Made by a program: the position numbers and the translations under genes. The notes below the pieces were generated by a model that was not told the DNA's origin, searched no databases, and saw only the letters and a program-made list of their open reading frames with translations. DNA of 64,000 nt, taken from Owenweeksia hongkongensis DSM 17368. GTDB lineage: Bacteria > Bacteroidota > Bacteroidia > Flavobacteriales > Schleiferiaceae. The number at the start of each line of letters is the position of its first letter. The first letter of the stretch is position 1. The stretch is from contig NC_016599.1 of the NCBI RefSeq assembly GCF_000236705.1, forward strand, positions 434,001 through 498,000. Direction: 5' to 3'. Below, one piece after another: positions 32,522 through 37,677 of this stretch.

Positions 32522-32565
32522 GGTCATCCAGGTTACATAATTCTTTAAGGGTCTTTCTCATAATT

Positions 32566-32596
32566 TTTGGTGGGTTGTAGAAAAGGATTACCTTTG
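32566..32596 (+). promoter_or_regulatory. tetR promoter
   Basis: TTTG (32566-32569), 19 bases, then TACCTTTG (32589-32596): a full consensus match. The predicted start of transcription (about 32603) falls inside the dyad at 32599-32612, so a bound repressor would block it. Confidence 0.75.
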
Positions 32597-32598
32597 TA

Positions 32599-32612
32599 AG
32601 TGATTACTCACT
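32599..32612. promoter_or_regulatory. TetR operator 1
   Basis: AGTGA-TTAC-TCACT inverted repeat directly after the tetR -7 element. The flanked 18-base form AAGTGATTACTCACTATT recurs, with four extra central bases, at 33155-33172 before the next gene. Position and repetition support an autoregulatory operator. Confidence 0.65.
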
Positions 32613-32618
32613 ATTGAA

Positions 32619-33140
32619 ATGACAGAAAAGCAAGAGAAAATATTGGAAGCAGCATTGCAACTTTTTGCTGAGCAGGGGTATGCAGCAACTTCCACAAGTA
32701 AAGTAGCCAAGGTAGCTGGCGTTTCTGAAGGTTTGATTTTTAGACACTTTAAAAATAAGGAAGGTCTACTTGAGGCTATTTTTGAAACGGTAGCTGAAAG
32801 GACAAAAGCAATTTTTGCAGATATAGTATTGTCAACTGACCCGGAGGAGGTGATTAGTAAAGCACTGGAGATGCCATTTATGATTGATCCTGGTGAATAT
32901 AGGGTTTGGAGACTCACATATGCTATGAAATGGCAGGTTCAAAATTACAGCAGAGAAAAGGTAGAACCTTTGAAATTAGCTGTAAAAAATGCTTTTGACA
33001 AGCTTGGCTACGAAAACCCTGATGCAGAAAGTGAATTGATCTTGATGCAACTCGATGGAGCGGCTACAGCTATTTTGTTGCACGAACCAGATAATAAAAT
33101 GGAGATTTTAAAATGCTTGAAGGCAAAGTATAATCTCTAA
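32619..33140 (+). CDS. TetR/AcrR family transcriptional regulator
   Basis: A 173-residue repressor-type protein. The N-terminal HTH is canonical: EKILEAALQLFAEQGYAATSTSKVAKVAGVSEGLIFRHFKNKEGLLEAIF, with recognition helix around GLIFRHF (residues 38-44). The C-terminal ligand domain is not assignable to an inducer. It heads a plus-strand run of five genes (33193-37677), and matching dyads at its own promoter and before the next gene suggest that it represses both itself and the run. Confidence 0.92.
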   Translation: MTEKQEKILEAALQLFAEQGYAATSTSKVAKVAGVSEGLIFRHFKNKEGLLEAIFETVAERTKAIFADIVLSTDPEEVISKALEMPFMIDPGEYRVWRLTYAMKWQVQNYSREKVEPLKLAVKNAFDKLGYENPDAESELILMQLDGAATAILLHEPDNKMEILKCLKAKYNL

Positions 33141-33154
33141 ATTTTTGACAGAAT

Positions 33155-33172
33155 AGTGAGTAATTAATCACT
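33155..33172. promoter_or_regulatory. TetR operator 2
   Basis: AGTGAGTAATTAATCACT, in the 52-base gap between tetR and the SDR gene. Read on the other strand, its flanked form is operator 1 with ATTA inserted at the centre. A TTTTTG tract (33142-33147) lies just upstream, but no clean -7 follows, so the local promoter is uncertain. Confidence 0.6.
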
Positions 33173-33192: not shown

Positions 33193-34254
33193 ATGGAAAT
33201 TGATAAATCAAAGCCAGTGATGGTAACCGGAGCTAATGGTTATGTAGCAAGTTGGTTGGTGAAAAAATTGCTCGATGAGGGCATTACCGTCCATGCTGCT
33301 GTACGGAATCCTAACAAAAAAGATAAGTACCAGCATCTGGATAATTTAGCTGCTAATGCCCCCGGTAGGATAAAATATTTCAAAACTGATTTATTGGAAG
33401 AAGGCTCTTATGCAGAGGCAATGGAAGGATGCGAACTGGTGTATCACACGGCCTCACCTTATATTTTAAACGTTAAGAATCCACAAAAAGAGCTTATTGA
33501 CCCTGCTTTAAAAGGTACACAGAATGTATTGAATCAAGCCAGTAAAACTCCTTCGGTAAAAAGGGTAGTGGTGACTGGTAGTTGCGCTGCGATATATACT
33601 GATGCTATAGACTGCAAGTCAGCTCCTAATGGCACTCTTACGGAAGAAGTTTGGAATACCAGTTCTTCGTTGGATTATCAGCCGTATTCTTATTCAAAAA
33701 CCTTGGCCGAAAAAGAGGCCTGGAAAATTGCGGATGGCCAAAATCAGTGGGACTTAGTTGTTATAAATCCTAGCGGTGTTTTTGGTCCAGCATTGAGCAT
33801 GAATACAGACTCTGAGAGTATTAGCATTTTGAAGCAATTTGCCGATGGTGCCTTAAAAATGGGAGCACCTAAGGTAGGTATTGGTTTAGTAGATGTTCGC
33901 GACTTAGCAGAGGCACATTACCTTGCTGGCTATACACCAGCTGCAAATGGGCGAAACATTATTTCTGGTCACAATACAAATTTTCTTGAAATGGGCCTCG
34001 CCCTTCAGGAGAGGTATGGAAGTAGTTACCCAATTCCTAAGTCTGCTCTACCAAAATGGTTACTGATGATTATCGGTCCAATAGTAAATAAGGCACTGTC
34101 GAGGAGATTCATCAAAAATAATGTGAACATAGAATGGAAGGCAGATAATTCTAAGAGTAAAAAAGAGCTTGGAGTGAAATACAGACCTTTAGAACAAACC
34201 ATGGAGGACTCTTTTCAATTTTTAATTGAAAGTGGTTTAACTTCTAAAAAGTAA
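33193..34254 (+). CDS. NAD(P)-dependent extended SDR (dihydroflavonol/aldehyde reductase-like)
   Basis: A 353-residue extended short-chain dehydrogenase. The nucleotide-binding TGANGYVASWLVKKLL motif is near residue 12. The VVVTGSCAAIY strand and YSYSKTLAEKEAW (YxxxK catalytic pair) are followed by NPSGVFGPAL. The group contains dihydroflavonol reductase-like and aldehyde/ketone reductases; the substrate is unknown. Cytoplasmic. It is the first structural gene after tetR and carries operator 2 just upstream. Confidence 0.88.
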   Translation: MEIDKSKPVMVTGANGYVASWLVKKLLDEGITVHAAVRNPNKKDKYQHLDNLAANAPGRIKYFKTDLLEEGSYAEAMEGCELVYHTASPYILNVKNPQKELIDPALKGTQNVLNQASKTPSVKRVVVTGSCAAIYTDAIDCKSAPNGTLTEEVWNTSSSLDYQPYSYSKTLAEKEAWKIADGQNQWDLVVINPSGVFGPALSMNTDSESISILKQFADGALKMGAPKVGIGLVDVRDLAEAHYLAGYTPAANGRNIISGHNTNFLEMGLALQERYGSSYPIPKSALPKWLLMIIGPIVNKALSRRFIKNNVNIEWKADNSKSKKELGVKYRPLEQTMEDSFQFLIESGLTSKK

Positions 34255-34299: not shown

Positions 34300-34794
34300 A
34301 TGAATTTTTACGATTTAGAAGCTTTGACACCAAGCGGCAAGCCCATAAAAATGAGTGACTACAAAGGTAAGGTTGTACTTATTGTAAATACAGCAACTCA
34401 ATGTGGTTTAACCCCTCAGTTTGAAGGTTTGGAAAAACTACACCAACAATACAAAGGTCAAGGGCTGGTTGTATTAGGTTTCCCCTGTAATCAGTTTGGC
34501 GGGCAAGAACCTTTGAGTAATGATGAAATGGAAAGTACCTGTCAGGTGAATCACGGGGTGAGTTTTCAGCTTACTGAAAAGGTGGACGTGAATGGCCCTG
34601 GTACTCACCCAGTTTTCAAATATTTGAAGAGTAAGTTTTGGTCAATTTTGGGAAGAAGTATCAAATGGAATTTTACCAAATTTTTGGTTGGACCAGATGG
34701 AAAGCCCTACCAAAGATATGCTCCTACCACCAAGCCAGAAAAGCTAGAAAAAGACATTTTGAAATTATTAAAAACAACAAAAGCTACAGCATGA
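34300..34794 (+). CDS. glutathione peroxidase family protein (Cys type)
   Basis: A 164-residue thiol peroxidase. The catalytic tetrad is complete: Cys35 (NTATQCGLTPQ), Gln69 (FPCNQFGGQEP), Trp123 and Asn124 (KWNFTKF). Cysteine, not selenocysteine, is used. Many bacterial members are reduced by thioredoxin, not glutathione, and a thioredoxin gene lies 2 kb away. The stop overlaps the next gene by four bases (ATGA). Confidence 0.94.
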   Translation: MNFYDLEALTPSGKPIKMSDYKGKVVLIVNTATQCGLTPQFEGLEKLHQQYKGQGLVVLGFPCNQFGGQEPLSNDEMESTCQVNHGVSFQLTEKVDVNGPGTHPVFKYLKSKFWSILGRSIKWNFTKFLVGPDGKPYQRYAPTTKPEKLEKDILKLLKTTKATA

Positions 34795-35456
34795 AAGTAA
34801 TAGTTACAGGGGCAAGCGGAATGGTTGGTAAGGGTGTTTTACTGGAATGTTTAGATCACCCTAAAGTTGTGGAAGTGTTGTCCATAGGAAGAAGAACCTT
34901 GGACTTAACCCATCCAAAACTGAAGCAAATAGAACACAAAGATTTTTCGGAGTTTGAATCTATAGCAGATCAGCTTACCGGCTATGATGCCTGTTACGCC
35001 TGTATGGGTGTTAGTTCGGCAGGAATGAAAGAGGAGCAATACAGAACAATGACTTATGATTATACCATGGCTCTGGCAAATGTGTTGTATGGTTTAAACG
35101 CAAAAATGACCTTCATATATGTTTCTGGCCAAGGAACAGACTCTTCGGAAAAAGGAAGGATTATGTGGGCTCGGATAAAGGGTAAAACGGAGAATGATAT
35201 TTTTAAATTAGGATTCAAACAAGCTTATGCGTTTCGACCCGGAGCCATTATTCCAATGCGAGGTGTAGAGTCTAGTAGTAAGCTTTATAACTTTCTAATT
35301 AAGAGTTTAGGTTGGCTCATTAAGCTGATGAAGAAAATATCACCAAACTCCATTGTTAACACCCAGCAAATTGGGGTAGCTATGATAAATGCAAGCATCG
35401 CAGGGTTTGATAAAGAGATAATTGGGCCAAAGGAAATCTTAATGTTAGCTGAGTAA
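34791..35456 (+). CDS. NAD(P)-binding Rossmann protein (epimerase/NmrA-like)
   Basis: A 221-residue atypical SDR. MKVIVTGASGMVGKGVLLECL is a clear N-terminal Rossmann motif, and the YDACYACMGVSSAGM and TFIYVSGQGTDSSEKGRIMWARIKGKTENDI segments are typical of small oxidoreductase-like HTATIP2/YwnB relatives. Lys in KGKTEN may correspond to the SDR lysine. ATG at 34791 overlaps the gpx stop by four bases; the longer frame to 34638 is within gpx and is rejected. Substrate unknown. Confidence 0.85.
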   Translation: MKVIVTGASGMVGKGVLLECLDHPKVVEVLSIGRRTLDLTHPKLKQIEHKDFSEFESIADQLTGYDACYACMGVSSAGMKEEQYRTMTYDYTMALANVLYGLNAKMTFIYVSGQGTDSSEKGRIMWARIKGKTENDIFKLGFKQAYAFRPGAIIPMRGVESSSKLYNFLIKSLGWLIKLMKKISPNSIVNTQQIGVAMINASIAGFDKEIIGPKEILMLAE

Positions 35457-35490
35457 TAATTTTTAAATAACGAACCCGACACACCACATT

Positions 35491-36528
35491 ATGATAGTAA
35501 CCAAAAACTTTAACCTATTACGGATAATTCGTTTTGCCGGACATCACTTCATATGGCTTATTCCATTGGTAATAGGAGTTGCACTTATACAAGAATATTC
35601 AGGCTGGGAATGGGTAAAAGTGCCGTTTCAACCCATAAGCTTAGTGGGTACAGCTGTAGCGTTCTATTTAGGTTTTAAAAATAATCAGAGCTATGATAGA
35701 CTTTGGGAGGCACGTAAGGTATGGGGAGCCGTGGTAAACACAAGTAGAGCTTGGGCTAGTAATGTCAAACATTTTGTTACCGATCAGCATACCGATAATG
35801 ATGTGGCTGATGCTGAGCTAAATCAATATCGAAAGACTCTAATTTACAGACACCTGGCTTGGTTATATGCCTTGCGTAGTCAATTGTTAATACCTACAGA
35901 GTGGGAGCATGTTAGTCAAAAAGGTATGGTAGGAAAATATGCCAATATGCGAATACAGAAGTATGGTTTAGGACAAATTACCGATGAAATAACCAGGGCT
36001 GAGCTCCATACTTTTTTGGATGCTGAGGAATATGAAAATTTGAAAAAGTTTAAAAATATGAGCACTCAGATTATTGATAAGCAAGCCGAAAACTTGAAGC
36101 TACTGCGGAAAGAAAATTTAATTGATGACTTTAAACTGGCACAGCTACAAACCTTGCTAAATGAATTATACATCCATCAAGGTAAGTTGGAGCGAATAAA
36201 GAAGTTTCCTCTGCCAAGACAATATGGGAGCATAAGCTTCATTTTTGTTGGAATTTTTATCGTTCTGCTACCATTTGGTATGATTCCACTTTTTCACGGT
36301 ATGGGAGCCTGGGGCTTGTTTCTATCAATTCCTCTTACTGCACTGGTAGCCTGGGTTTATTTGGTTATGGAGCTTGTGGGTGATTATTCCGAAAACCCGT
36401 TTGAAGGTTCAGCCAATGATATTCCGATGTATTCGCTTTGTAGAACTATTGAAATAGACTTGCGTGAAATGCTAGGAGAAACGGATCTGCCTCCGGCCAT
36501 TGAAGCCAAAAATGGAATTTTAATGTAA
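35491..36528 (+). CDS. bestrophin family anion channel protein
   Basis: A 345-residue membrane protein of the bestrophin/RFP-TM (UPF0187) family. An N-terminal pair of helices (about residues 17-60) contains the neck-like FYLGFKNNQSYDRLWEARKVWGAVVNTSRAWA block, which is the family signature. Two further helices lie at about 245-300, and the conserved ELVGDYSENPFEGSANDIPM follows. Bacterial bestrophins form pentameric ion channels. It is in the tetR-led gene run. Confidence 0.88.
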   Translation: MIVTKNFNLLRIIRFAGHHFIWLIPLVIGVALIQEYSGWEWVKVPFQPISLVGTAVAFYLGFKNNQSYDRLWEARKVWGAVVNTSRAWASNVKHFVTDQHTDNDVADAELNQYRKTLIYRHLAWLYALRSQLLIPTEWEHVSQKGMVGKYANMRIQKYGLGQITDEITRAELHTFLDAEEYENLKKFKNMSTQIIDKQAENLKLLRKENLIDDFKLAQLQTLLNELYIHQGKLERIKKFPLPRQYGSISFIFVGIFIVLLPFGMIPLFHGMGAWGLFLSIPLTALVAWVYLVMELVGDYSENPFEGSANDIPMYSLCRTIEIDLREMLGETDLPPAIEAKNGILM

Positions 36529-36567
36529 TTCACCATTATAGATATAAATACAGTGAGAATAATTAAG

Positions 36568-37677
36568 ATGATTTTAAAAACACTTTTAGTCCTTTTAATT
36601 GTGGGTGGTGTTGCAGTGGCTGCATACCTCAAAATGAATCCACAGTTTGGAGGAAGTATTTCAAAAGCGGAAAAAAAACAGTTTTCAAAATCTCAGCAAT
36701 GGGATGGTGAAAAGTTTGTGAATCAGAAGGAAACGCTGATGGATCTTGGCATTAAAGAAATGCCGGGATTATTAAAAAAACAGTTTACAGGTAGAGAAAA
36801 TAGAGGACCAAAAGAAAAATTACCACTTATAAAATTTGATAGGAAAACCTGGGATGCTGATACCACAAGTTTTCAATTTATATGGTTTGGGCATTCGGTA
36901 GGATTGATGAAAATGGCGGGAAAAAACATATTAATTGACCCGATGTTTGGCGCAGATGCTTCGCCTATAGGGCCGTTCAGAACCAATAGATATACCGACA
37001 GCACCCTTTATGTGATAGATCAATTGCCCGAAATTGATGCAGTTTTGATCACACACGATCACTACGATCATTTGGACTATGACAGCTTTAAGAAACTAAA
37101 AGGAAAAGTCGGTCATTATTATGTTCCACTTGGAGTTAAGCGTCATTTGCTGAGATGGGATATTGCCGATGAGGATATTACAGAATTTGACTGGTGGGAG
37201 TCTGCTAATCTAGATGAAGTAAAAATGACTTTTGTGCCTTCACGCCACTTTTCAGGCAGGGGACTGACCGACAGAGCAGAAAGCCTTTGGGGCGGTTGGA
37301 CATTTATAAGCACTAAACATAGAGTGTATTGGAGTGGAGATGGTGGCTATGACACCCATTTTAAAGAAATAGGAGAAAGGTTAGGGCCCTTTGACTGGGC
37401 ATTTTTAGAGTGCGGCCAATACAACAAACTGTGGCATCATATCCACATGTATCCTGAAGAAAGTGTGCAGGCTGCGATTGATGTAAAAGCCAAAACAAGT
37501 ATTCCCATACATTGGGGAGCATTTACTTTGGCACTGCATGATTGGAGAGATCCAGTGCAAAGGTTTGGGGAAGAGGCGAAAGCAAAAGGAGTACATATTG
37601 CAATGCCAGAATTAGGAGAGGTGATTAGGTTTCAAGGAAAAGAAGAAAACGGTTTTTGGTGGGAAGGTTTTGAGTAG
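36568..37677 (+). CDS. MBL-fold hydrolase, NAPE-PLD/UlaG-like
   Basis: A 369-residue metallo-beta-lactamase-fold protein with an N-terminal membrane anchor (MILKTLLVLLIVGGVAVAAY). The HxHxDH motif THDHYDHLD is at about residues 162-170, preceded by WFGHSVGLMKMAGKNILIDPMF. Further ligands occur in VPSRHFSGRGLTD, SGDGGYDTHF and IHWGAFTLALHDW. The GHS-DPM and SRHFSGRG pattern resembles the NAPE-hydrolysing phospholipase D/RomA group. The ATG at 36568 is preferred over a GTG at 36553. Last gene of the run, before a strong hairpin. Confidence 0.88.
   Translation: MILKTLLVLLIVGGVAVAAYLKMNPQFGGSISKAEKKQFSKSQQWDGEKFVNQKETLMDLGIKEMPGLLKKQFTGRENRGPKEKLPLIKFDRKTWDADTTSFQFIWFGHSVGLMKMAGKNILIDPMFGADASPIGPFRTNRYTDSTLYVIDQLPEIDAVLITHDHYDHLDYDSFKKLKGKVGHYYVPLGVKRHLLRWDIADEDITEFDWWESANLDEVKMTFVPSRHFSGRGLTDRAESLWGGWTFISTKHRVYWSGDGGYDTHFKEIGERLGPFDWAFLECGQYNKLWHHIHMYPEESVQAAIDVKAKTSIPIHWGAFTLALHDWRDPVQRFGEEAKAKGVHIAMPELGEVIRFQGKEENGFWWEGFE

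Follow-up and report, generated by a model that had tools for sequence, protein, structure and literature searches.

A gene of a TetR-family regulator (tetR) in Owenweeksia hongkongensis lies between two similar inverted repeats, called here operator 1 and operator 2. Do both sites belong to this regulator, and do they differ from one another in the spacing of their half-sites or in some other way? A first-pass annotation of the window (the whole stretch of 64,000 nucleotides that was analysed) described operator 2 as operator 1 with four bases inserted in the middle, and suggested that, through this half-site shift, the two sites may bind with different affinity or oligomer. We consider it highly probable that the TetR-family protein is an autorepressor that acts locally through two operators alike in type and spacing, and would thereby repress both tetR and the adjacent gene of an SDR oxidoreductase. 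In kind it is ordinary, a local TetR autorepressor of an already known type. The difference between the operators lies elsewhere than in the spacing.

The source genome is a single contig of 4,000,057 bp, and the genome-wide site searches covered all of it. Relatives were collected as 80 loci from a tblastn search, supplemented with relatives within the family. The comparative set consists of 77 usable Bacteroidota loci with a tetR homologue of 35–100% identity. A site in these loci was called an operator when at least 12 of the 14 core letters matched. The loci are related to one another, so that counts of loci do not represent independent events. This lineage of TetR was seen in records of Flavobacteriales, Cytophagales, Bacteroidales and Saprospirales, and the nearest relative (L019) has 84% protein identity. 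In the window, tetR is separated by a gap of 52 bp from the extended SDR gene, which is followed by a glutathione peroxidase gene and others. The features of the locus are collected in Table 1.

Table 1. Features of the tetR locus; positions are counted from the first letter of the window.
Feature	Position	Strand	Description
Putative -33 element TTTTTG	32564..32569	+	TTG at -32..-30 relative to the operator core; assigned by analogy to the -33 element known in Bacteroidota
-7 box TACCTTTG (TAnnTTTG) of the tetR promoter	32589..32596	+	Conserved at a fixed place
Operator 1	32596..32611	+	GTAA-GTGA-TTAC-TCAC; two overlapping GTRA-N4-TYAC dyads with a 4 bp offset; 14-bp core 32599-32612
TetR-family regulator, 173 aa	32619..33140	+	N-terminal HTH PF00440
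A/T tract AAATTTTTG	33139..33147	+	Located at the stop codon of tetR; operator 2 follows about 22 bp downstream
Operator 2	33156..33171	+	GTGA-GTAA-TTAA-TCAC; first dyad complete (GTAA-N4-TCAC), second dyad incomplete; 14-bp core at 33159-33172
Extended SDR oxidoreductase	33193..34254	+	Dihydroflavonol/cinnamoyl-CoA reductase-like

The assignment of the protein to the TetR family is clear. The TetR_N helix-turn-helix model PF00440 matches it with an E-value of 3.6e-20 (71.9 bits against a cut-off of 24). The AlphaFold2 monomer has nine helices in a two-domain all-helical fold with a mean pLDDT of 92.2. A structure search with this predicted monomer gave 364 PDB matches at E ≤0.001 with TetR regulators at the top, and the nearest fold was that of the FadR of B. 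halodurans. The Bacillus FadR proteins (B. halodurans, 5GPA/5GPC, and B. subtilis) are the nearest solved fold and are also among the best sequence matches. However, the identity in the structural alignment is only 22–25%, the neighbours here are SDR oxidoreductases and not genes of fatty-acid degradation, and the protein misses the cut-off of the NCBIfam FadR model NF053878 (51.2 bits against 200). As is characteristic of TetR/AcrR regulators, conserved inverted repeats, i.e., palindromic operators, flank tetR on both sides. The recognition-helix region VSEGLIFRHF is nearly invariant, in parallel with the nearly invariant operator.

To judge from the sequence and its conservation, the two sites that flank the TetR-family gene are almost certainly its operators. 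In the whole genome, sites with at most two mismatches to GTGAGTAATTACTCAC are just these two, and only 1 of 100 shuffles of the window yields two matches at up to three mismatches. Operator 1 is present in 74 of the 77 loci and operator 2 in 57 of the 77, with proteins down to 35% identical. Conservation of both sites was the support that the first-pass annotation had asked for. The regulator presumably binds both of them, and the extended SDR is the presumed target of operator 2. The gene after tetR is a DFR-like extended SDR in 25 loci and belongs to the classical SDR group in 33. When the extended SDR lies no more than 15 nt from tetR, operator 2 is missing (8/8 loci); with a gap of at least 37 nt, it is present (18/18 loci). 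The regulon looks local, consisting of the repressor and one neighbouring transcription unit. At up to two mismatches the genome contains no further site that would indicate a wider regulon. One-mismatch matches to the degenerate core (34 on the forward and 27 on the reverse strand) are not clearly above a reversed-pattern control (24 and 20). A literature search for the sequence GTGATTACTCAC found no paper. The analysis thus supplies this TetR lineage with an operator motif, AGTRAKTAMTYACW, with the form GTRAGTGATTACTCAC at operator 1, and with a two-site local regulon.

The place of operator 1 suggests how tetR could be controlled. The motif TAnnTTTG, at positions -12 to -5, serves the housekeeping sigma factor as its -7 box (PMC9723704). 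In the window, the box ends two bases ahead of the operator 1 core, and therefore the predicted transcription start of tetR is at about 32601, inside operator 1. At least five of the six fixed letters of the box are kept at a fixed distance from operator 1 in 69 of the 74 loci; the TTG of the putative -33 element is weakly conserved at its place across the 74 aligned relatives. The first-pass annotation had put operator 1 on the predicted start of a promoter, and this agrees with the box and its conservation. Lying on the start site, a repressor bound to operator 1 would block RNA polymerase.

The mechanism that we propose is as follows. A repressor dimer would read the inverted repeat GTRA-N4-TYAC with the core AGTRAKTAMTYACW. 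At operator 1, directly past the -7 box, binding would result in autorepression. Operator 2 is situated some 560 bp farther on, in the gap that separates tetR from the SDR gene; there the same repressor would keep the SDR down, and a small ligand would free the repressor and release the SDR.

By sequence comparison, the difference between the two operators is real and conserved, and it lies in the second dyad and not in the spacing. One complete dyad is found at operator 2 in practically all loci. A second GTRA-N4-TYAC dyad with at least seven of eight letters is present at operator 1 in 65 of 74 loci and at operator 2 in 19 of 57, against a background of 0.0015. The operator 2 of the window itself retains seven of the eight letters of the second dyad, so that its two sites may differ less than those of most relatives do. 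Operator 1 has the two overlapping dyads of the QacR-like operator class. With both dyads complete and offset by 4 bp, it could plausibly accommodate a pair of dimers, as is the case for QacR or FadR, and the second dyad of operator 2 would be the weaker one.

The predicted split is that operator 1 takes up two dimers and operator 2 firmly holds a single one; we give it roughly equal chances for and against. The prediction is a fair one, since overlapping-dyad systems are known and the predicted monomer is nearest to FadR. Two dimers on overlapping dyads have been described for QacR, SlmA, CprB and FadR (5GPC) (PMC6018408). DarR (PMC10636190) and QacR (PMC6018408) share with our locus overlapping palindromes, to which a dimer of dimers binds in those systems. 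An N4 spacer, as here, also occurs in the operator of DarR, ATACT-N4-AGTAT (PMC10636190), and in these systems binding is weaker where a half-site of the second dyad is missing (PMC10636190, PMC6018408). The regulators themselves differ from ours, as do their ligands and the sequences of their operators, and at our locus the dyads are offset by 4 bp. The FadR of Sulfolobus acidocaldarius binds its own operator as two dimers and another operator as one, and which of the two occurs depends on a G-C pair that lies 11 positions away from the symmetric C-G (PMC6449355). That protein is also a local regulator, and in our operator 1 the bases G(-3) and C(8) are likewise 11 positions apart. However, it is archaeal, and the stoichiometry was measured there, whereas it is only predicted here.

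The strongest competing explanation is that each site takes a single dimer alike and that demands of the promoter or leader, not a second dimer, preserve the TTAC block peculiar to operator 1; we consider this quite possible, though somewhat less than evenly likely. TetR regulators that bind as a single dimer are common (PMC6018408), and operator 1 is under other constraints as well, since the transcription start and part of the -7 box fall within it. The -7 box ends on the G at -3 of operator 1, and conservation of that part of the second dyad can therefore have either of two causes. On the other hand, the TTAC block at positions 5–8 is found in 62 of 74 operator 1 sites but in 3 of 57 operator 2 sites; as the loci are related, a Fisher test on these counts is no more than indicative. 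The nearest solved fold, B. halodurans FadR, is among the listed two-dimer binders (PMC6018408). In addition, the Crocinitomix-type loci (L052, L056, L058 and L060), in which operator 2 is absent, carry as operator 1 an inverted copy of the asymmetric unit. This argues that the whole 16-bp unit matters, and promoter constraints would not demand that it be kept inverted.

If the split between two dimers and one is true, nature offers in these loci a series of operator pairs whose stoichiometry is set by a few bases. According to the 2019 paper on the archaeal FadR, bacterial TetR proteins belong to one class or the other (PMC6449355). It is doubtful that the wider statement holds, namely that this is a Bacteroidota-wide regulator with two stoichiometries, a dimer of dimers at its own promoter and a single dimer before the target, conserved through the phylum.

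The distance between the operators allows for another explanation. The two sites could cooperate by DNA looping, or operator 2 could be a roadblock to readthrough from the tetR promoter, with the SDR gene having no promoter of its own. The SDR gene follows tetR directly on the same strand, and the operators are 557–572 bp apart in most loci. A TAnnTTTG box near operator 2 was found in 0 of 57 loci, and no canonical promoter was found there. The near-constant distance, however, is explained by the constant length of tetR, and its spread covers more than one helical turn, so that phased looping is not suggested. In 52 of the 57 loci, a tract matching AAAAAATTT at no fewer than seven of nine letters precedes operator 2 by about 22 bp. 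This A/T tract is possibly part of an unusual promoter, and if it belongs to an unrecognised promoter, this would speak against a readthrough unit. We therefore regard looping or a roadblock as unlikely next to two operators that each repress the gene behind them.

As for the spacing, the strings from which the four-base insertion had been read are correctly located. The core of operator 1 reads AGTGATTACTCACT, and the reverse complement of 33155-33172 is AGTGATTAATTACTCACT, the first string with a central ATTA. The arms, said to be identical, match over 10 and 9 bases. The insertion itself proved to be a misalignment. On the same strand, AGTGATTACTCACT aligns without gaps to AGTAATTAATCACT, the core of operator 2, and a repeat finder pairs the two sites directly with a spacing of 560. 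At operator 1, 62 sites have the form AGTRA-N4-TYACW, and at operator 2 it is seen in 51 of 57. The N8 form is limited to two of these 57, those of the window and of L019, and none of the operator 1 sites has it. When the operator 2 regions are scored with a profile built from the operator 1 sites of other loci, the ungapped register comes out best in 57 of 57, and in L019 operator 1 and operator 2 share the identical 16-mer GTGAGTAATTAATCAC. The ungapped register is thus conserved, and the insertion is no property of the system. An operator 2 made of operator 1 plus four central bases, i.e., an AGTGA-N8-TCACT dyad with an altered dimer geometry, is very improbable on this evidence, even though the letters of the window genome permit it with 19 matching bases around the four-base gap.

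The artefact of register has a simple source. The half-sites are tandem four-base steps (GTRA GTRA / TYAC TYAC), and because of this operator 2 still resembles operator 1 when slid by four. In the window, the centre of the N4 dyad of operator 2 is at 33165/33166 and that of the N8 dyad at 33163/33164. Judging from the aligned sites, the dimer spacing is the same at both operators. The four-base register was dropped on the evidence from the 57 second sites. The half-site shift can no longer be the ground for a different affinity or oligomer; the idea of such a difference survives as a prediction that follows from a complete versus a degenerate second dyad. In general, a half-site with a period of four bases can imitate an insertion between two sites.

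Several observations concern the genes around the operators. In L012–L087 the type of SDR behind operator 2 is swapped between extended and classical while tetR and the operator persist. In L021 a glutathione peroxidase gene stands directly after tetR. Downstream of the extended SDR of the window, positions 34300-37677 of the same strand encode the glutathione peroxidase, an NAD(P)-binding protein, a bestrophin-like channel and a metallo-beta-lactamase-fold hydrolase. An apparent homologue of this hydrolase comes after tetR in L081.
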